Source of the DNA: a virus
IMG/VR virus record: IMGVR_UViG_3300042557_000413
Location: 1-40,487 of that record
Strand: one strand, 5' to 3'
DNA: 40,487 nt
In this document: piece by piece, positions 6,578-40,430 of the stretch
Layout: each line of letters starts with the position of its first letter
Position numbering within the stretch: position 1 is the first letter of the stretch
Notes under the pieces: generated by a model
The model's database searches: none
Told to the model about the DNA's origin: nothing
What the model saw: the letters and a program-made list of their open reading frames with translations, nothing else
Translations under genes and position numbers: made by a program

Positions 6578-7038
6578 TTGACTGCCTCCAGTGCCACTTG
6601 CTTCCGATCTTCTACTTGCCGTTGTAGTTCCTCAAAACTTATCTGGCCTAGATCGTAAGTCGCTTTAAATCCCATGATATCACGCATATAGGAACCAAGC
6701 ACAGGATTCGATCCTCTGCCGTGTCCGCCTGCGTTCACTTGATCCAGAACCTTATCACGATGCTTGGCCGAGTACTCTTTCGTTCGATCTTGTTTCACCA
6801 CTGCGACAACGTGCTGTACGAACAGTTCCCGTTGGTATCCAGTCGGAGGAGGCAATTCGTTTTTAACCCACCTGTTCAGAACGCTAATCGCTTCGCTTGC
6901 CTTTATCGACTCCAAAGCCACTGACCAGACTTGGATCGTCGCCTGCGGATCTGGTGAGTTATCTTTTAGCCATTGCGACACACCTGGAAAAGCGATGAAG
7001 GCTTGACGTAGAAAGTCTCTGGATTCGTCGGGTGTCAT
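6574..7038 (-). CDS. Helicase-loader/inhibitor-like replication protein (154 aa)
   Basis: It begins 'MTPDESRDFLRQAFIAFPGVSQWL', then a helical run 'TIQVWSVALESIKASEAISVLNRWV' and 'LPPPTGYQREL'. These features resemble the G39P-type helicase loader/inhibitor and related proteins encoded just after phage initiators. Homology is inferred from pattern and position only. It overlaps the initiator by 4 bases (ATGA) and the RusA-like gene by 4 (GTGA), so the three form a coupled replication/recombination unit. Confidence 0.6.
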   Translation of the reverse strand: MTPDESRDFLRQAFIAFPGVSQWLKDNSPDPQATIQVWSVALESIKASEAISVLNRWVKNELPPPTGYQRELFVQHVVAVVKQDRTKEYSAKHRDKVLDQVNAGGHGRGSNPVLGSYMRDIMGFKATYDLGQISFEELQRQVEDRKQVALEAVK

Positions 7039-7790
7039 AAGCCTAGCTCCGCAAAGGTTGATTTAGAATTGTTCGTTGCTTTCCGATGATCGCCGTTGGT
7101 GATCAGGTTCACACAGTTCGTGCGACTGGTTGAATACTCAACAACCGCGATCGCCTCTTCAGTAGAAAACCGTTCTAACTCTTTCAACTGACCCTGCTGC
7201 GTCCACTGATCGATCCTGCCGCTCTTGGCAGATTGCTTTGCGATCCAGCTTCGCCATGCGTTTTGAAAATCAGAATCTTTTCCATGTGACGAAAAAGAGA
7301 GAGGGCTTTCGTGTTTCCTTTCCTCTCCCTTCCTTTCCTCTTCCTTTCCTTTCCTTTCCAGGCGTAGAACGTTCTTGGAATCTTCTTGGAACGTTCCTGG
7401 AATGGTAGTCGAATCCCTATTTACGCTGGAGTTTTCATGCGATTCTGCTGCATAACACAGTAGAAACAATGCGGACAGCTTCGATTTCTGTGCCTTGTCA
7501 ATCCGTTGGTGCGAAAGGAACTTAACCACCCTCCCGATAGCCTTTCCAGAACACTCCAAGATCTCTATGTAACCAATCTCGGAAAGCTCTTGGAGGCTTC
7601 CAGGAATGTTCTTGGAATCTTCCTGGAATGGAAAACAGTTAGCTCGAACCAGTGCTGGGTTAGCTAGAAAGTAACCCTCATCATCGCAGAAGTTAAGCAA
7701 CGCTATTGCTAATAACCTTGCGTGTTCGGACAGCAACGCAAGCTCCTCGTTCTGCCAAAACTCTGGTTTGATCGTTCGTATTCTTGGCAT
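7035..7790 (-). CDS. Phage replication initiator with internal iterons (251 aa)
   Basis: From ATG 7790 (AAGG about 8 bases upstream) the product starts MPRIRTIKPEFWQNEELALLS, the opening of a winged-helix phage replication-protein family. A central lysine/glutamate-rich linker (LERKGKEEERKGEERK) and a C-terminal domain 'AWRSWIAKQSAKSGRIDQW' follow. It probably binds the origin and recruits helicase. The gene contains two arrays of 11-bp iterons (7371-7403 and 7586-7629) and a 40-bp polypurine tract at 7317-7358. This is like lambda O, where the origin lies in the initiator gene. An ATG-proximal hairpin terminator precedes it. Confidence 0.85.
   Translation of the reverse strand: MPRIRTIKPEFWQNEELALLSEHARLLAIALLNFCDDEGYFLANPALVRANCFPFQEDSKNIPGSLQELSEIGYIEILECSGKAIGRVVKFLSHQRIDKAQKSKLSALFLLCYAAESHENSSVNRDSTTIPGTFQEDSKNVLRLERKGKEEERKGEERKHESPLSFSSHGKDSDFQNAWRSWIAKQSAKSGRIDQWTQQGQLKELERFSTEEAIAVVEYSTSRTNCVNLITNGDHRKATNNSKSTFAELGL
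7371..7403 (-). repeat. Three tandem 11-bp iterons, origin array A
   Basis: Read on the minus strand the units are ATTCCAGGAAC, GTTCCAAGAAG and ATTCCAAGAAC, in direct 11-bp register. A degenerate fourth follows at 7360-7370. The consensus RTTCCARGAAS is shared with array B. Lying in the initiator gene next to a polypurine tract, they are a good candidate for initiator-binding sites. Confidence 0.75.
7586..7629 (-). repeat. Four tandem 11-bp iterons, origin array B
   Basis: Minus-strand units are ATTCCAGGAAG, ATTCCAAGAAC, ATTCCTGGAAG and the weaker CCTCCAAGAGC, each exactly 11 bp, about one helical turn. This places repeats on the same face of DNA. The protein is repetitive here too (FQEDSKN... 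IPGSLQE), but the in-phase 11-bp period is not a multiple of three, so DNA-level selection is likely. Confidence 0.75.
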
Positions 7791-7866: not shown

Positions 7867-8001
7867 TGCACCGATTGCGATTATGAAGACTCGCGGCTCT
7901 AGTGCTCACCAGCGTTTTACGTCCCGTTTCAAGACGCACCGACGCCCTCGGATGTTTTGATAACCTGCGCCGCGCAGTTTAATAAATTGTTCGTATGACG
8001 A

Positions 8002-8409
8002 TCACCACTCTGGATCGTCTGGAAACTCCGGTACGCCTTCCGCTGCCACTCCAAACCAATGTTCGTGCTCCTCTGGCGTCAACTCGAACATCGTGCCATC
8101 GTCTCTCCGAATCGCCCAAATCTGCTCTGGCCCCCACGCTTGCCCGACCGATCTATCGCCGGTGAAATCCTCTGCGCACACCCAAACCGGAATCCCGCGA
8201 ATTGTGACGCCTTGACGGAACCTTGCATCAAACGCCTGATCGAGAGCCGATTGGCAACCCTCCATTGAATCGCTGTGCATCCACTGCCAAAATCCGCGAA
8301 GATTCATCACGACCAATGATCGAACATCTTCCGGTGTGTCGTCGCTCCACTTCATCGTTTTCACGAAATCGTCAACGATGCTTGCCTGCTGTATCTCTGT
8401 AACTGTCAT
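8002..8409 (-). CDS. Acidic protein of unknown function (135 aa), possibly cassette-borne
   Basis: ATG 8409 has GAGG at 6 bases. The product (start MTVTEIQQASIVDDFVKTM, end VPEFPDDPEW) is acidic and tryptophan-rich and is not recognised. It is flanked by a near-perfect inverted 9-mer (minus strand GTTCGTGTG at 8426-8434 and CATACGAAC at 7989-7997), and the upstream one edges an attC-like hairpin. This gene may therefore have entered as an integron-type cassette. After its TGA the same frame stays open for 31 codons. Confidence 0.7.
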   Translation of the reverse strand: MTVTEIQQASIVDDFVKTMKWSDDTPEDVRSLVVMNLRGFWQWMHSDSMEGCQSALDQAFDARFRQGVTIRGIPVWVCAEDFTGDRSVGQAWGPEQIWAIRRDDGTMFELTPEEHEHWFGVAAEGVPEFPDDPEW

Positions 8410-8427
8410 GTCTATCCTCGATTCGCA

Positions 8428-8518
8428 CACGAACAAACCGTTGCATCCGAGCCCCCGTCAACGGTCTTTTGAAATGGAAAGGTTCATCGCGGGGGCCGGA
8501 TGAACGGTAGCGTTATGC
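8428..8518 (-). other. Integron attC-like recombination hairpin
   Basis: An imperfect palindrome of 19 base pairs: ACCGTT-g-CATCCG-a-GCCCCCG (8437-8457) pairs with CGGGGGC-CGGATG-AACGGT (8490-8508) around a 32-nt loop. The two unpaired bases on one arm resemble attC extrahelical bases. It is bounded by GTTATGC (8512-8518; GCATAAC on the minus strand) and by AAC at 8432-8434. It begins exactly at the stop codon of the upstream gene, as in a gene cassette. The outer box at the left end is degenerate. Confidence 0.6.
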
Positions 8519-8869
8519 CTAAACTGGCGGGATTCCAGTCCAGGACGAAACACATCCACGCTCAAACTCTCTTGCGGCCCATGAGTGATCGCCACCGACA
8601 CGCCCATGCTCCAGTTTTTTCACAAAATCCGCTCGACTCATAATCTCTGGCTGCGTTAACTCCCACGTCCACTTGTTGCCGCCCACGTCTTTTGTTTTGC
8701 GACATACCGTGACAAAATCCTTTGCTACTGCCAATACGACCAGTACGGGGCAAAAATGATCCTCCCACCAGTAGTCGCCCTTTGTCGGATTGTTTCGTTT
8801 ATGCTCGGACTCCGCTTCTCGGTATTCGCTTGCCTTAAACAATCGCTCTGGCATATCGATTTGTTCCAT
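8519..8869 (-). CDS. Unknown small protein (116 aa), possible gene-cassette ORF
   Basis: From ATG 8869 (GAGGA at 6 bases) the product reads MEQIDMPERLFKASEYREAE and ends GCVSSWTGIPPV. A WWEDHFCPVLVVLAVAKDFVTV segment suggests a small alpha/beta fold. No family is recognised. Its TAG stop abuts the GCATAAC box of the attC-like hairpin, the arrangement of a cassette gene and its attC. It lies just after the exonuclease gene. Confidence 0.7.
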   Translation of the reverse strand: MEQIDMPERLFKASEYREAESEHKRNNPTKGDYWWEDHFCPVLVVLAVAKDFVTVCRKTKDVGGNKWTWELTQPEIMSRADFVKKLEHGRVGGDHSWAAREFERGCVSSWTGIPPV

Positions 8870-8884
8870 GTCTTTTCCTCGCAC

Positions 8885-9538
8885 TTAAATCAACCTCTCC
8901 ATCATCTCACCCATAACCTTCACCGCTAACTCTAACCGTGACTTCAAAAAAGCAATCTTTGCATCGTCTCGTTCTACCCTAACGATTGCTATTTTTTGCT
9001 TTCCTTCAATCCGTGGATCGAAGCTGATAAAGTCGCACCACGATCGATCGGTAACCAGCATGTGGCCGTAGACTTGCCACTCGTACTCCTTCGGTACTGT
9101 CTTCGTCAGCAAAGTACCGACATGCACACTCGGATTAAATGGACACTTGACTTCAACGGTCCCGTCAGTACCTACCAATCCGTCTGGAGTACCACCGATA
9201 AAAGCGTTGTATTCGAAGAAATTGAACGGTGTTGAATTGACTTCGTTACCAGTAAGTTGTCGATATTCGTCAATTGCAATCGGTTCGTTATTCGTTCCCC
9301 ACTGAGTCGCACTGTTGGAAAATGAGTACCAAGAACCTAACCGTTCCGCGACAAGCAATTGCAAATAGCTATAACCCGTCTGGGTGAACAAAGCGTCTTT
9401 TGCTTTCCCTTCTCCGATCAAATCACCGAAGCGACTGCAGGTAATCCGTCCAGCACGTTTCTGTAGCCACGCTTCTCTTGCAGCTTCGTCACGATCGACG
9501 ATCGCAACGTCTTCTTCCATTAGTTCTAAATCAAGCAT
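8885..9538 (-). CDS. YqaJ/lambda-type recombination exonuclease
   Basis: A 217-residue member of the PD-(D/E)XK lambda-exonuclease family. Seen in order: 'WLQKRAGRITCSRFGDLIG' (24-42), Glu85 in TNNEPIAIDEY, Asp119 in GGTPDGLVG, and Glu129-Val-Lys131 in GTVEVKCPF, then 'YEWQVYGHML'. These enzymes resect double-stranded ends for annealing-type recombination. ATG 9538 follows AAGGAGGTGA, a near-perfect anti-16S match. The upstream 122-residue gene may be its ssDNA-binding or annealing partner. Confidence 0.92.
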   Translation of the reverse strand: MLDLELMEEDVAIVDRDEAAREAWLQKRAGRITCSRFGDLIGEGKAKDALFTQTGYSYLQLLVAERLGSWYSFSNSATQWGTNNEPIAIDEYRQLTGNEVNSTPFNFFEYNAFIGGTPDGLVGTDGTVEVKCPFNPSVHVGTLLTKTVPKEYEWQVYGHMLVTDRSWCDFISFDPRIEGKQKIAIVRVERDDAKIAFLKSRLELAVKVMGEMMERLI

Positions 9539-9551
9539 TCCAATCACCTCC

Positions 9552-11288: not shown

Positions 11289-11763
11289 TTCGAAACTCTC
11301 CTGTACTGAACTGCATTCGATACGCAACGGACTCTTCTTCGACTGCATACCAACCGTGCAAAATTGACGTACATAAAAAACCAGCTTGGCGAAAAAATAG
11401 CTGACCATCCAAGTTCCTTTCTCGCAGCTCCAGCGATATCTTGTTCCGTCGTTCGTAAGCTAGTTTCGACTTCAGCTTTTCGATCATTGCAGAACCAATA
11501 CCAAGACGTTGCGACCTAGAACGGACTGCAAAGTTAAGCAACTCGATGCGTGTCTTGTGTAGTTCGTAGACCATGTACCCAACGACTTCTTCGTTTCGTT
11601 CTGCGACCATGCCGATACAGTTTCGTTGACGCAGTGCGATCAAGAACTCTTGTTGACTCCACGGGAAGTCGAATACGTCTTTTTCGATTGCGACTACTGA
11701 GGACAAGTCGCTTCGCACCATCCAGCGGATGTATGATTGAGTAGCCATTTGAATTGCAGTCAT
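11281..11763 (-). CDS. GNAT-family N-acetyltransferase, RimI-like
   Basis: A 160-residue GNAT protein. 'LLNFAVRSRSQRLGIGSAMIEKL' (about 75-97) contains the Q/R-x-x-G-x-G/A acetyl-CoA loop (QRLGIG). It is preceded by the typical 'EEVVGYMVYEL' strand and followed by 'SLELRERNLDGQLFFRQAGF'. The order and spacing resemble ribosomal-protein acetyltransferase RimI. In a phage it could modify host proteins or antagonise a toxin; the target is unknown. ATG 11763 overlaps the csrA stop (ATGA), so the two are co-translated. Confidence 0.88.
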   Translation of the reverse strand: MTAIQMATQSYIRWMVRSDLSSVVAIEKDVFDFPWSQQEFLIALRQRNCIGMVAERNEEVVGYMVYELHKTRIELLNFAVRSRSQRLGIGSAMIEKLKSKLAYERRNKISLELRERNLDGQLFFRQAGFLCTSILHGWYAVEEESVAYRMQFSTGEFRNG

Positions 11764-11945
11764 GATGCGATTTTCTCCTCGCTTTGTTGCATGATGATGT
11801 CGTACACTTCTTGACGATGAATAGAAACGTCCTTCGGTGCGTTAAACCCAAGACGTACCTTGTCCCCGCGTATTTCAATGATCGTGATAACGATGTCGCT
11901 TCCAATGCGAACTGATTCCGTTTTCTTCCTGCTAAGTACCAACAT
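11760..11945 (-). CDS. csrA: CsrA-type post-transcriptional regulator
   Basis: At 61 residues it has the full CsrA form: MLVLSRKKTESVRIGSDI, VITIIEIRGDKVRLGF and APKDVSIHRQEVYDII. The first-strand (LxLSRK) and late (V.IHR.E) RNA-binding surfaces are intact. CsrA dimers bind GGA in hairpin loops and control translation or stability of mRNAs. ATG 11945 is chosen for GGAG at 6 bases and for the exact family start. Upstream ATGs add unrelated residues. A phage copy may reprogram host mRNAs or time phage genes. Confidence 0.95.
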   Translation of the reverse strand: MLVLSRKKTESVRIGSDIVITIIEIRGDKVRLGFNAPKDVSIHRQEVYDIIMQQSEEKIAS

Positions 11946-11986
11946 AAAACACTCCATGCCTAAAGATTCCATAAAACATTAACCAA

Positions 11987-12083: not shown

Positions 12084-13043
12084 TCAAGCATTTACAAGTG
12101 ATCGTTTTCGCCTGTCTTTACGTGGTAATGTTTTGCGCATTACTTGCCTCTCAGCCTTTGCTAACGCTTCCTCAACAGTAGCAACCTCACTCGGAACAAT
12201 AGAAACGTTCATAGATCCATGAGAGAATAAATCTTGCCCTCGCATGTGTTTGCGAACATAGACTTCCGCTTCTGGATCGGATCGATCTTGCCTCCAGTGG
12301 TCGCACACCCAATTCAATAAAGCCTCTCTTCGTTTCTTTCCGGCAGGCACGTCTCGCATCTTCCATAACTCTTTCACACCTGTCGGATCGGTCAATAACG
12401 AAAGACTAGGAACGTCCTCTTGTATGCGTACCTTCGCAATCCAATGTGCTCGTATTCCGGCAGCAAGACCAACTAAAAGCTCGTTTGCTCTATGCAGCAT
12501 CCCTTCCTCAGCCGCCACTTCGCTATCCACTTCCAAGGAAAACCACTTTGAACCTTTGTAGCCGTATGCAATCCGTGGATTGAACAACCGAGATACCTTT
12601 ACTCCATTACTGTAATACTTGTTTTCATCTAAAGGAAACTTATAAAACTTTCCATACTTATCGATTTTAGAAAAGTAAAGCTCTGAAAAGCAATCGTAAT
12701 CAGTCGCGTAGTGATCAAGTCGCTGACCTAAAACTTTCAGCTTTTTGCGATGTCTTTCTAATTGACTCCAAACAATACTCCATTCAAGATGACAGGCTGT
12801 CATTAGGTTCAGTTCTTCATTTGCAATGTAAACAGATTTAATTCCCCAGTCTTGCGTTAACCCGCTCTTAATAGGATTAAAGTTGCATCCACCTATATCT
12901 TTGGTTGAATCAGAGGTGGCTAAACAGTCGATAGGAATAGCACCTTCCATAGATTTTGTGCCAATGTTTGCACATCGCAAATACACAAAAATTGACTCTA
13001 AGTTATCTATTATCTTACAACGTTCGTCAGCTACTTTACTCAT
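12084..13043 (-). CDS. Large early protein of unknown function (319 aa)
   Basis: Not recognised. The N-terminal two thirds are mixed alpha/beta ('WSIVWSQLERHRKKLKVL', 'SKWFSLEVDSEVAAEEG'). The C-terminal part ('MRDVPAGKKRREALLNWV', 'DPEAEVYVRKHMRGQ', final 'TLPRKDRRKRSLVNA') is basic and could bind nucleic acid or a partner. ATG 13043 stands 9 bases after the upstream stop. As one of the biggest genes in the early operon, beside a methyltransferase and a nuclease, it may be a host-takeover or defence factor. That is context only. Confidence 0.7.
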   Translation of the reverse strand: MSKVADERCKIIDNLESIFVYLRCANIGTKSMEGAIPIDCLATSDSTKDIGGCNFNPIKSGLTQDWGIKSVYIANEELNLMTACHLEWSIVWSQLERHRKKLKVLGQRLDHYATDYDCFSELYFSKIDKYGKFYKFPLDENKYYSNGVKVSRLFNPRIAYGYKGSKWFSLEVDSEVAAEEGMLHRANELLVGLAAGIRAHWIAKVRIQEDVPSLSLLTDPTGVKELWKMRDVPAGKKRREALLNWVCDHWRQDRSDPEAEVYVRKHMRGQDLFSHGSMNVSIVPSEVATVEEALAKAERQVMRKTLPRKDRRKRSLVNA

Positions 13044-15811: not shown

Positions 15812-16684
15812 ATGCTACTTGACGACCTATTCGCACTCTACTGCCGCAAACGTCTGCGGATGAGATCACCCAACACGATACGACTCTACCGCCACTCGAT
15901 CGCCGCGTTTGAAAAAACGTTAGGTAGGAAAGCAACTACCGATGATCTCAACGACGATAACGTCGAGCTGCACATGAGTCGGATCGTTGACTCTGGTTTA
16001 TCTACAGCATCGGCGAATAAAGACCTCTGGCAGCTCGGTGCTATCTGGCGTTTTGCGAACCGAAACAGGCTGTGCAATACCTGGCCGAACGTCCAGCTCT
16101 ATCCAGAACCTGAGCACGTTCCGATGGCATGGCTACCAGATGAACTTGACAGACTGTTCGCAAGCGTAGCGAAAGAAGACGGCACAGTATCAGGCGCACC
16201 AGCAAGCCTATGGTGGCAATCGCTGTTGAGTGTCTTGCTCGACTGTGGCGAAAGAATCGGTGCGATTATGCGATGCACTCGGCACAATATCCACGGTAGT
16301 TATCTGCTAGTTCCAGCGTGCCATCGGAAAGGAAAGACGAGAGATAAGCTTTTCGAACTTTCAAGCGAGACGTTGGTGTTGCTGTCGTCGCTTACGCTAT
16401 CCCATCGCTATAACGAGCTGTTTCCGTGGGACAGATCAGAGACGCACATTTACTATCGGTACACGCAAATTCTGAAGCGTGCAAATCTGCCAAGCGATTC
16501 AAAGTCGAAGTTCCACCGGCTGAGGAGAACGGTGGCAAGTGCAGTGAAGAATCAAGGTGGAGACGCAACCGCAGCAATGGATCATGCATCGAGTGCGACG
16601 ACGAAACGCTACCTCGATCCTCGTCTTACTGGCGAGGTTTCAACGTGCAGCTTGGTGGATGAGTGGAGGAAGAAACCTAAGTGA
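15812..16684 (+). CDS. int: Tyrosine recombinase / phage integrase (290 aa)
   Basis: An N-terminal SAM-like core-binding domain (about 1-95) is followed by the catalytic domain. Visible residues are Arg in DCGERIGAIMR, Lys in HRKGKTRDKL, the H-x-x-R box FHRLRRTVAS, His in MDHASS, and the nucleophile Tyr in TTKRYLDP near the C-terminus. It integrates and excises the phage genome by site-specific recombination. It is the only clear plus-strand gene, between two HTH regulators, and marks the phage as temperate. It resembles short planctomycete-type integrases without an arm-binding domain. Confidence 0.93.
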   Translation: MLLDDLFALYCRKRLRMRSPNTIRLYRHSIAAFEKTLGRKATTDDLNDDNVELHMSRIVDSGLSTASANKDLWQLGAIWRFANRNRLCNTWPNVQLYPEPEHVPMAWLPDELDRLFASVAKEDGTVSGAPASLWWQSLLSVLLDCGERIGAIMRCTRHNIHGSYLLVPACHRKGKTRDKLFELSSETLVLLSSLTLSHRYNELFPWDRSETHIYYRYTQILKRANLPSDSKSKFHRLRRTVASAVKNQGGDATAAMDHASSATTKRYLDPRLTGEVSTCSLVDEWRKKPK

Positions 16685-37623: not shown

Positions 37624-37821
37624 TTAGTCGCCCCCGCCTTCTTCAACAGGAGGAGGAATCAGAGACCACTCCGAATCGACGTATTGCCAACCAGGGCCAG
37701 CGTAATCGGGACACACAATAACAGTGAGATGGACCGGCGCAGTCCAAGCCTCGACCCCATCCCAAACACACACGTTAAAGACTTGACCTGATGCTGTCAG
37801 TAACGCCCAACGTGTCACCAT
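37624..37821 (-). CDS. Small fibre-associated protein (65 aa)
   Basis: A 65-residue protein: MVTRWALLTASGQVFNVCVW, then PGWQYVDSEWSLIPPPVEEG. Tryptophan-rich, soluble, family not recognised. It overlaps the glycine-rich adhesin by 7 bases and stands one base before the LamG protein. It may be an adaptor or chaperone for the adjacent fibres. Confidence 0.65.
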   Translation of the reverse strand: MVTRWALLTASGQVFNVCVWDGVEAWTAPVHLTVIVCPDYAGPGWQYVDSEWSLIPPPVEEGGGD

Positions 37822-39113
37822 GATATTATGATCCCATAGCCGTTGCCTCCGTTGCCACCCCGGCCACCGACGCCGGGGTTCATGCCGACACCGCCACCAC
37901 CACCACCGCCGCCACCTTTGCCCCCGTTGCCGCCAGCCGCGCCCGCAGTAGATGCCGTGACAGTCGTTCCGCCACCACCTCCGCCTGTGCCGCCTACGAT
38001 GCCGGTAGTGTCAATGCCGTTTGCGCCTGCCGTAGGCGATGCACCGCTCGTGCCCGCTGCACCGCCAAGCCCGCCCGCCGTAGCGCCAACGCTGTTGCCT
38101 GTGCCGCCGCCTGCCGATGCATCGATGGTGGTGGGGGTGCTGCTGTGACACCCGCCAGAGCCGCCACCGCCGCCACCCCACCGGGCAGTGCTACCCGCAG
38201 TTACGAGAGGCACGGTTGCGCTGTTGCTGGACCCGCCACCGCCACCGCCGCCTTCCCAAGCAGGGCCAAACGCAGTCGAATTGCTGCCGTTGATAGGCTG
38301 TCCCGATGCCCCCGCGCTGTTTATGGCTCCTAGGTTGGCGCCATGAGTGCCCGCCCCGGTGCCGCCGTTGGAAGTCGCGGCGCTGATCGCACCACCCGTC
38401 CCCGCAGCCCCGCCATGGGCGAAAAGTAGCGTGTAGGTCGTTGCCCGAACATACGACGGGGATCCAAAAAGCGGGCTCAAGCCCGCTGCGCCAGCCGTGC
38501 CGCCGCCACCACCGCCGCCGCCCAATCCGATCACGACAGTCAATTTTTCGGGCAGAGAATCGGTCGGAAAAATCTGACTGGCGCACAGCCCCCCGCCGCC
38601 GCCCGATCCACCTTTAGCGACAACTGCAGTTGCCAGAGACGCGCCGCCTCCGCCGCCGCCTCCGCCGCCCCACAGCCGGATAAGGGTCAGCCCGGTGCGA
38701 GGACCGGTCGGCTTGGTCCACGTTCCACCCGGGGCATCAAAAGTCTTAATGTCCGCCGAAGGGAACGGAGATGACACCTTCCACCCGCTTGCTTCGTCGA
38801 AAATCAATCCTGACTGGGCAGGAATGCTACCGCTCCACAAATCCGCCGTCGTTGTTCCATCCGTATGCAGCACTGTAATTGTCTGAGCCGCTGAATTGTG
38901 GTCGTTCCATACCGATAGAAACTTTACGACTCGGCTATCGCTCCCACTAGGGCTGCCCACTACGTCAGTTGTGGTTGCCGCTGCTATGCTCGTGTTGAGC
39001 CTGCCTGGTGTGACTGTACTACCGGACAGGTCCACATAGGAAGCGTGAACTAGGACGCTGTTCGATGAACTTGTTGTGACTCTGATTTTGTCGCTGGTTG
39101 ACGTTAGGTACAT
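37815..39113 (-). CDS. Glycine-rich tail-fibre adhesin, paralogue 2 (432 aa)
   Basis: About 110 N-terminal residues (LTSTSDKIRVTTSSSNSVLV, SYVDLSGSTVTPGRLN, WNDHNSAAQTITVLHTDGTT) match the neighbouring paralogue. A large glycine-rich domain follows with many runs of 5-9 Gly separated by Ser/Ala/Thr loops. Such Gly-runs form polyglycine-II lattices in the gp38-type adhesins of T-even-like phages. It may show variable receptor-binding loops. Local GC content is clearly raised. Confidence 0.88.
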   Translation of the reverse strand: MYLTSTSDKIRVTTSSSNSVLVHASYVDLSGSTVTPGRLNTSIAAATTTDVVGSPSGSDSRVVKFLSVWNDHNSAAQTITVLHTDGTTTADLWSGSIPAQSGLIFDEASGWKVSSPFPSADIKTFDAPGGTWTKPTGPRTGLTLIRLWGGGGGGGGGASLATAVVAKGGSGGGGGLCASQIFPTDSLPEKLTVVIGLGGGGGGGGTAGAAGLSPLFGSPSYVRATTYTLLFAHGGAAGTGGAISAATSNGGTGAGTHGANLGAINSAGASGQPINGSNSTAFGPAWEGGGGGGGSSNSATVPLVTAGSTARWGGGGGGSGGCHSSTPTTIDASAGGGTGNSVGATAGGLGGAAGTSGASPTAGANGIDTTGIVGGTGGGGGGTTVTASTAGAAGGNGGKGGGGGGGGGVGMNPGVGGRGGNGGNGYGIIISW

Positions 39114-39119
39114 TTTTTG

Positions 39120-40430
39120 TTACCAAGAGATTACGACACAGTATCCAGCGCCACCAATGCCGCCAGCACCACCAAGACCCGGGTTGCTACCGCGACCACC
39201 ACCACCGCCACCGCCGCCACCAAGCCCGCCCGCGCCGCCCGCTGCCCCACTCGCGTTTGCCTGCACAGTCGAGCCACCACCGCCGCCGCCCGCGCCGCCC
39301 GTTGTGCCGTTGGTGGCCCCGCCCGCATCGCCGGGCAGAGGTGCCGGGCCGCTCGTGCCCGCTGAGACGCCCGCCGCGCCCCCGCCGCCAACAGACGAGC
39401 TAAAACCGCCGCCGGTCGTCGGGCTGGTTGCCGCAGGAACTGCGCTTGTTCCACCGCCCGAGCCGCCGCCACCGCCGCCAAAAAGCGACCCGCCGCCAGA
39501 GGTTGAAGCGGCAGCATTTGTCGAGCCGCCACCGCCGCCCCCGCCGAAGTGACCGTAATAACTATTACCCGAGCCAACCGCCCCCGTGATGCCTTGAATG
39601 TCAAAACCCGGCCCGGACGAAATTGGCTGCCCCCCGTTGCCGCCCACCGCTGCGGTGGCTGTTTGACCGGCAGAGTGCCCGCCACCGCCGCCGCCACCGC
39701 CAGTCGCAAGCGCAGAGTTTTGCCCGCCTCTTCCGCCGCCGCCACCGTAGCCGGTCAGCAGTGAGCCAAATGTCGTGTTGCCGCCGACGCCACCATCGCC
39801 GCCGGAGCCGCCTGCCGTTGCACCCGTGCCCGCTGAGCCTCCTGCACCGATGGTCACCGATACGTCGTCGCCAAGGTCAGATGCTCTGAAAATTCTTTCA
39901 ACAAAGCAACCCCCGCCGCCGCCACCGCCACCCTTGGTAACGGTCGCAGTTGCCAGAGACGAACCCCCACCGCCACCGCCACCTGCACCCCAGACGCGAA
40001 CCATAACAACGCCCGGGTTGAAGCTGGTCGGCTTGTTCCATGTGCCACTTGCGGAAAAGGTTTGAATGTTTGTCGGTCTAGAATTGCCGATTACAGTCCA
40101 GCCTTGCCCATCGACGTAGGTCAATCCTGATTGGCTTGGCAGACTGACGACGTAAATATCGACGACTGTCGTCCCGTCAGTGTGTTGCACTGTAACCGAA
40201 TTGGCTGAACTGCTAGAGTCGTTCCAAATGGAGACGTACTTTATTTTTCGTTGCGTGCTACTCGCAGGACTTGCGACTATATCGGTCGTCGTAGCTGTGC
40301 TGATAGAACTGTTAAGCCGTCCCGGTGTAACCGTACTACCAGAGAGGTCCACGTAGCTAGCTTGCACGCGAACATCACCAGCTACGGAAGTGACCAATCG
40401 GATTTTATCGCTGGTGGATGTCAGCAGCAT
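39120..40430 (-). CDS. Glycine-rich tail-fibre adhesin, paralogue 1 (436 aa)
   Basis: This has the same architecture as the 432-residue neighbour: a conserved N-terminus (MLLTSTSDKIRLVTSVAG, SYVDLSGSTVTPGRLNSS), then 'GTWNKPTSFNPGVVMVRVWG', then Gly-runs to the end (GGAGYCVVISW). The two genes arose by duplication; conservation is strongest at the N-terminal anchor and at the terminal GGxGY...ISW. ATG 40430 overlaps the previous stop as TAATG. Confidence 0.9.
   Translation of the reverse strand: MLLTSTSDKIRLVTSVAGDVRVQASYVDLSGSTVTPGRLNSSISTATTTDIVASPASSTQRKIKYVSIWNDSSSSANSVTVQHTDGTTVVDIYVVSLPSQSGLTYVDGQGWTVIGNSRPTNIQTFSASGTWNKPTSFNPGVVMVRVWGAGGGGGGGSSLATATVTKGGGGGGGGCFVERIFRASDLGDDVSVTIGAGGSAGTGATAGGSGGDGGVGGNTTFGSLLTGYGGGGGRGGQNSALATGGGGGGGGHSAGQTATAAVGGNGGQPISSGPGFDIQGITGAVGSGNSYYGHFGGGGGGGSTNAAASTSGGGSLFGGGGGGSGGGTSAVPAATSPTTGGGFSSSVGGGGAAGVSAGTSGPAPLPGDAGGATNGTTGGAGGGGGGSTVQANASGAAGGAGGLGGGGGGGGGRGSNPGLGGAGGIGGAGYCVVISW

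Follow-up and report, generated by a model that had tools for sequence, protein, structure and literature searches.

Integron-type gene cassettes have been described on phages before. CALINs (two or more attC sites and no intI) are carried by virulent phages, namely, Tetrasphaera phage TJE1, Polaribacter phage P12002L, and Pseudoalteromonas phage PH101, according to Qi et al. 2023 (PMC9892861), and the attC sites of TJE1 recombine with IntI1 (PMC9892861). The locus examined here lies in the window, i.e., the whole 40,487-nt stretch of viral DNA that was analysed (IMG/VR record IMGVR_UViG_3300042557_000413). It and its relatives resemble the CALIN phages in having attC clusters on phage DNA without intI, together with small genes and methyltransferases. 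The CALIN definition fits many of the relatives, and the window itself holds one intact attC by the covariance model described below (R1). Compared with the known phage cassettes, there are three departures: the open reading frames (ORFs) are antisense to attC, whereas those of TJE1 lie on the attC strand; a docking site is present on the phage, where the available portion of PMC9892861 reports none; and no IntI gene was found in 49 phage records. The extent also differs, in that dozens of contigs are involved here and one pair of them shows a one-cassette insertion state.

Sedentary chromosomal integrons (PMC8352920, PMC2727003) have in common with these arrays the folding of attC, extrahelical bases on the R''-L'' arm, the G^TT junction, and one small ORF per cassette. 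Unlike them, the arrays described here are located on phages, lack intI, carry antisense ORFs, and have C, not G, at the first extrahelical position on the bottom strand. Cassette ORFs generally have one orientation and intI is sometimes reversed, according to the integron literature. An unusual orientation within the integron is shared with the Treponema-type integrons (PMC3607928); there, intI is reversed relative to the array, whereas here the ORFs are reversed relative to attC and an integrase gene is lacking. Judged from its sequence features, the window quite probably contains a small integrase-less integron platform, made up of an attI-like site, one complete cassette, and one truncated cassette, in a leftward early operon. 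The platform is situated between a replication-initiation gene to the left of the docking site (7035-7790, - strand, start MPRIRTIKPEFW; phrog_1408, E 4e-31) and a YqaJ/RecE-like exonuclease gene to the right of the array (8885-9547, - strand), whose stop in the relative L009 lies at a G^TTA junction.

The hairpin at 8428-8518 and its attC geometry

The initial annotation had drawn attention to a 19-bp imperfect palindrome with two unpaired bases, a 32-nt loop, and a GTTATGC box, all of which are present. On the + strand, the site begins with R'' (CACGAAC, 8428-8434) and AA, followed by stems of 6, 6, and 7 bp (8437-8442/8503-8508, 8444-8449/8497-8502, and 8451-8457/8490-8496; 19 bp in total) around a loop of 32 nt (8458-8489), with G8443 and A8450 as extrahelical bases on one arm. 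The return arm is followed by AGC and by R' (GTTATGC, 8512-8518), and we infer that crossover takes place at 8512^8513. DNA folding of the two hairpin strands greatly outperformed dinucleotide shuffles (z -3.35, with 0/200 shuffles as good, and z -3.52, with 1/200). Inspection confirmed that the hairpin adjoins the stop of the gene at 8519, and the next gene is bordered, in gene sense, by GTTCGTGTG (8436-8428) and CATACGAAC (7997-7989), as had been claimed.

Being located 5' of a gene within its transcript and able to pair well as RNA, the hairpin could also be regarded as an RNA element or a terminator between two early genes. Against this, the terminator and promoter scan at the hairpin gave no terminator-like T-run, and no Rfam family fits the stretch, the single sub-threshold match of the Rfam scan falling elsewhere. 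In addition, the two-base asymmetry is fixed across sites, and cassette borders lie at G^TT. This border evidence already contradicts an RNA element or terminator as the main role, which we hold to be most improbable; a secondary role in the mRNA is possible.

Relatives of the site were recognised with a spacing rule (AAC, 8 nt, one base, 5-7 bp, one base, stem), which we take to be that of the aadA1 attC and which served as a lead only. In the loci then collected it returned seven distinct sites, against none in reversed sequences; a looser structural scan lost the contrast with reversed sequence and was left out of the evidence. The sites of six relatives were aligned and converted into covariance model R1, of which the attC site of the window (8428-8518, + strand; 99 bits) is a training-set member. 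In the six-site alignment, 95.9% of the stem cells are paired, and the main stem has both-sided (compensatory) changes at 13 of its 18 pairs, a number reached by none of 500 shuffles. Sliding the structure along the alignment reduces the score to below half, and RNAalifold, unaided, predicts a nearly identical stem. Model R1 also detects sites beyond its training set.

TJE1 served as an outside control for R1. The best three matches on this phage (244, 1016, and 1462; E 0.2, 1.5e-4, and 0.02) coincide precisely with the ends of the three ORFs (orf1, orf2, and orf3) and lie on the ORF strand, with two of the three being weak (E 0.02 and 0.2). The sites described here have the AAC-8-base-6-base geometry of TJE1 and the same R'/R'' signature, a match between R' and R'' of the same cassette being found in both TJE1 intervals. 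The proposed attC-like identity is upheld by the stem covariation of the model built from relatives and by its matches at the TJE1 cassette ends: the hairpin at 8428-8518 is an integron-type attC, read on the + strand and thus opposite to the phage genes. Reading the attC in gene sense was also considered and was rejected, because the exchanged unit consists of the hairpin and the gene at 8002-8409, and because the extrahelical bases, by definition on the R''-L'' arm (PMC2727003), would then sit on the wrong arm.

The exact attC geometry, i.e., two extrahelical bases, the R''-L'' arm, and fixed spacing, was found in 90 of 108 sites. GTT is present in R' in all 109 intervals, the R'' box contains AAC, and shared cassettes terminate at G^TT. 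On the bottom strand, the second extrahelical base is T in 90/90 sites and the first is C in 84/90, where a conserved G is expected. The G at this position is a conserved and not a defining base, because a change from G to C leads to only a 2.7-fold loss with IntI1 (PMC2727003). As putative attC sites, they would be recombined by IntI in the form of folded bottom strands.

Cassette borders, exchange between phages, and ORF orientation

The complete cassette of the window spans 7990-8512 (+ strand; TTCGTATG, antisense gene, attC, and G), and exactly this block is shared with the contig L002. Homology between the two extends only from GTTCGTATG (7989) to GCGTT (8514), i.e., over the hairpin and the gene at 8002-8409; the BLAST alignment adds a few chance A+T-rich bases on the left, and the surroundings are unrelated. 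The gene (8002-8409, - strand) encodes 135 aa of unassigned function and has no Pfam or PHROG match. Of the cassette reading in the initial annotation, the view that the boxes are cassette borders holds; the mobile unit, however, is the hairpin with the gene at 8002-8409, and not the gene whose stop adjoins the hairpin. A second cassette (8513-8884, + strand) is truncated and has lost the right arm of its attC, and is present as a complete cassette with attC in L006. Its antisense gene (8519-8869, - strand, or up to 8884; 116-121 aa) has no assigned function either, and reads SSWTGIPPV in the window where the relatives end in SST-stop.

The gene at 8519 is shared by L003-L006, all of which stop at TCCACCTAAC or TCCACCTAGC and then diverge where the contig continues; beyond the shared gene, L004 and L006 contain further hairpins that are built alike. 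On the + strand, each unit comprises TT after G, an antisense gene, a box ending in AAC, the hairpin, and a closing G, and this anatomy is that of an integron gene cassette with the ORF reversed. The comparison of related phages that had been proposed (L002-L006) revealed a mosaic with breaks at exactly the cassette borders, and the genes and hairpin are not kept vertically. The contigs L003, L005, and L107 end at or barely past such a border or a docking site, which is where population variants would be expected to break the assembly.

The first bases of an integron cassette derive from its own circular form, and the 5' end of a cassette therefore agrees with the complement of R'' in that cassette and not with that of the preceding site. 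Over the 109 intervals, the four bases after GTT agree with R'' of the same cassette at 3.71 of 4 positions (81% perfect), versus 2.06 of 4 (15% perfect) for R'' of the same site and a maximum of 2.14 in 10,000 shuffles. In the window cassette at 7990-8512, the 5' end differs from the complement of its own R'' at one position, and in the L002 copy at none. Where cassettes are shared by different phages, including the window and L002, homology ends at G^TT on the right. The own-R'' match is the mark that circular cassettes and crossover at G^TT would leave.

A pattern scan of IMG/VR yielded 83 stretches, in which R1 has approximately 150 matches, some of them in near-identical contigs. The arrays contain up to ten sites, in a single direction within each array. 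By our count, an attC-type site is present in about 47 viral contigs, the window included, which makes the earlier statement that phage-borne cassettes are rare doubtful; the attC call of the initial annotation is right and its scale was understated. Among the large ORFs of four of these contigs are matches to phage portal, terminase, head, tape measure, and replication families. Terminase types vary between array contigs, and therefore several phage lineages are involved. Most proteins encoded by the cassettes occur only once (106 proteins in 97 families; median length 92 aa), with recognisable products including Lar, GIY-YIG endonucleases, and methyltransferases.

The longer ORF of an interval is antisense to attC in 99 of the 109 cases and sense in nine, with no ORF in the remaining one; a simple binomial puts this bias at 1e-20, a value that treats the intervals as independent, which within an array they are not. 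In 27 of 37 cases, neighbouring large ORFs and cassette ORFs have the same direction. An ORF in the sense of the attC top strand is a usual, not a strictly defining, feature of integrons, and here 99/108 are antisense. No report of phage cassette arrays with antisense ORFs was found in a literature search. The antisense orientation argues for what may be a separate phage cassette pool. In L112 (8741-8780, attC-oriented), the docking site adjoins the start of a replication-initiation gene, as in the window, but the ORF of the first cassette runs in the direction of attC, which makes it one of few departures from the antisense rule.

The docking site and the insertion state

An attI-like docking site, TTTTGATAACCTGCGCCGCGCAGTTTAATAAATTG^TT (7955-7989, + strand), precedes the complete cassette of the window and is part of a longer conserved block starting at 7914. 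It is also present in L004, L006, L007, and L009, followed there by different cassettes. Whereas first cassettes vary, the left ends of the arrays are conserved, even where the upstream sequence is unrelated. A second docking type, CATAACACCGTGATATG...ATAATACTTG^TT, has tandem repeats and was found in contigs that are unrelated to one another upstream of it; all of the contigs recovered with this pattern (10/10) have attC arrays, and a cassette follows the docking site immediately. The exact docking-site pattern was absent from bacterial genome contigs. The docking core of the window (AATAAATTG^TT) resembles the reported attI2 core (AATAAAATG^TT; PMC12901181), a likeness that carries little weight between such short A+T-rich sequences.

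The clearest sign of insertion, or of precise excision, at G^TT is the difference between L107 and L130. These contigs have the same docking site, after which 2288/2288 nt are identical downstream except for one 283-nt cassette, which in L130 (1976-2258) separates the docking G from the first cassette of L107; the comparison covers no further upstream context, as L107 starts only 51 nt before the junction. A conserved docking site with varied first cassettes is observed together with a one-cassette insertion state, and the position of the docking site and the exchange next to it suggest an attI role.

The arrays might alternatively be passive relics of occasional off-target capture from host chromosomal integrons, now drifting or moving between phages by homologous recombination alone. 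The phages have no integrase, the array in the window is partly degraded (one truncated cassette), and off-target insertion has been proposed as the origin of CALINs (PMC8618304), all of which would agree with relics. However, L107 and L130 differ by a single docking-site cassette between flanks that are otherwise identical, 81% of the cassettes retain an intact circular-cassette signature, the ORFs are antisense, unlike those of ordinary integron cassettes, and the docking sites are conserved. We therefore consider passive relics unlikely and favour a working platform.

Copies of parts of the docking site were also observed elsewhere. Inner copies of the docking motif bounded by G^TT are located at 8315-8360 and 9320-9400 of L006 and at 2600-2640 of L009; in this respect these two arrays are like the delta-attI-type cassettes of class 1/2 integrons (PMC12901181), and unlike them they are phage-borne and without integrase. 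An 18-mer of the docking palindrome also occurs in L008, L013, and L014, where the context is the same in all three and lacks the G^TT border; it is probably unrelated. Between the docking site and the replication-initiation gene of L004, an extra segment (8850-8925) resembles a tRNA 3' half (GGTTCGAGTCCGCACGCCGCC); neither ARAGORN nor Rfam reports a tRNA at this place.

The recombinase and the source of the cassettes

No protein above the TIGR02249 cut-off for IntI was found in the 49 phage records (8+38+3), many of which are fragments, so that IntI could lie outside them, and a tyrosine recombinase of any kind is present in only 7 of 32 array-bearing records, with varied types. The window encodes a phage tyrosine integrase (15812-16684, + strand), which is XerC/D-like and not an integron integrase. 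It was set aside as the cassette recombinase because of this type and because most array-bearing records have no tyrosine recombinase.

The sites could also be made and used by a phage recombinase unrelated to IntI, the system being merely integron-like. This would be in line with the different first extrahelical base, the antisense ORFs, and the failure to find IntI, and many of the genes of the cassettes and phages lack a functional assignment. The scarcity and variety of the tyrosine recombinases argue against it, as does a geometry equal to that of the TJE1 attC sites that recombine with IntI1; moreover, no shared candidate enzyme was noted, short of a full gene-content comparison. Such a recombinase is decidedly unlikely. 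As IntI is missing from the 49 records and tyrosine recombinases are confined to 7/32, the leading explanation is that a host integrase works the phage platforms in trans.

In this host-integrase scheme, the attC bottom strand, here the - strand, would fold when the phage DNA is single-stranded, e.g., in replication. IntI from the host or a co-resident element would then cut at G/TT and link cassette and docking site, after which the junction would be resolved by replication. New cassettes would enter at the promoter-distal end of the leftward operon, so that only ORFs antisense to attC would be read; consequently, the phages would draw on their own cassette pool. We lean, with reservation, towards a large set of phages that share an integrase-less platform, consisting of an attI-like docking site and a private pool of small antisense-ORF cassettes, with host integrases loading and exchanging these in trans. 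Points against a host-IntI platform are that no integrase for these sites was seen in the 49 records, that bacterial genome contigs lack the exact docking-site pattern, that the first extrahelical base is C and not G, that the unpaired spacer is short, and that two of the three TJE1 matches are weak.

Capture of the cassettes from a chromosomal integron, as initially suggested, finds no backing: no bacterial relative of the gene at 8519 was recovered by protein alignment in one scan of genome contigs, IntI was not found, and the ORFs are antisense. BLAST searches of GenBank phages and plasmids, with the whole region, the individual genes, and a single attC as queries, gave no relevant match; both genes (8002 and 8519) are unmatched in GenBank phages, and the gene at 8002 also in plasmids.

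Phage genomes are rich in small early genes of no known function that come and go. Cassettes would provide a site-specific route for this turnover, and their defined borders make such genes readable from metagenomes. The data suggest that these phages exchange small genes with the aid of a borrowed bacterial enzyme, and the proposed scheme predicts that phages exploit host integron integrases. The cassette route may explain part of the diversity of phage counter-defence genes (methyltransferases, Lar). If this holds true, an adaptive system of the host serves as the gene-exchange machine of its phages.

Three other regions of the window may be mentioned. In the early region, a small protein encoded at 11760-11972 was judged CsrA-like by eye, and a similar one is present in another locus. 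The segment 12085-13052 (gene 12084-13043) is cleanly inserted by comparison with L003, in which the flanks are joined at one base (4730/4729). At the right end (37800-40430), the G+C content rises from about 47% to 65-67% over two genes that are glycine-rich or unknown.
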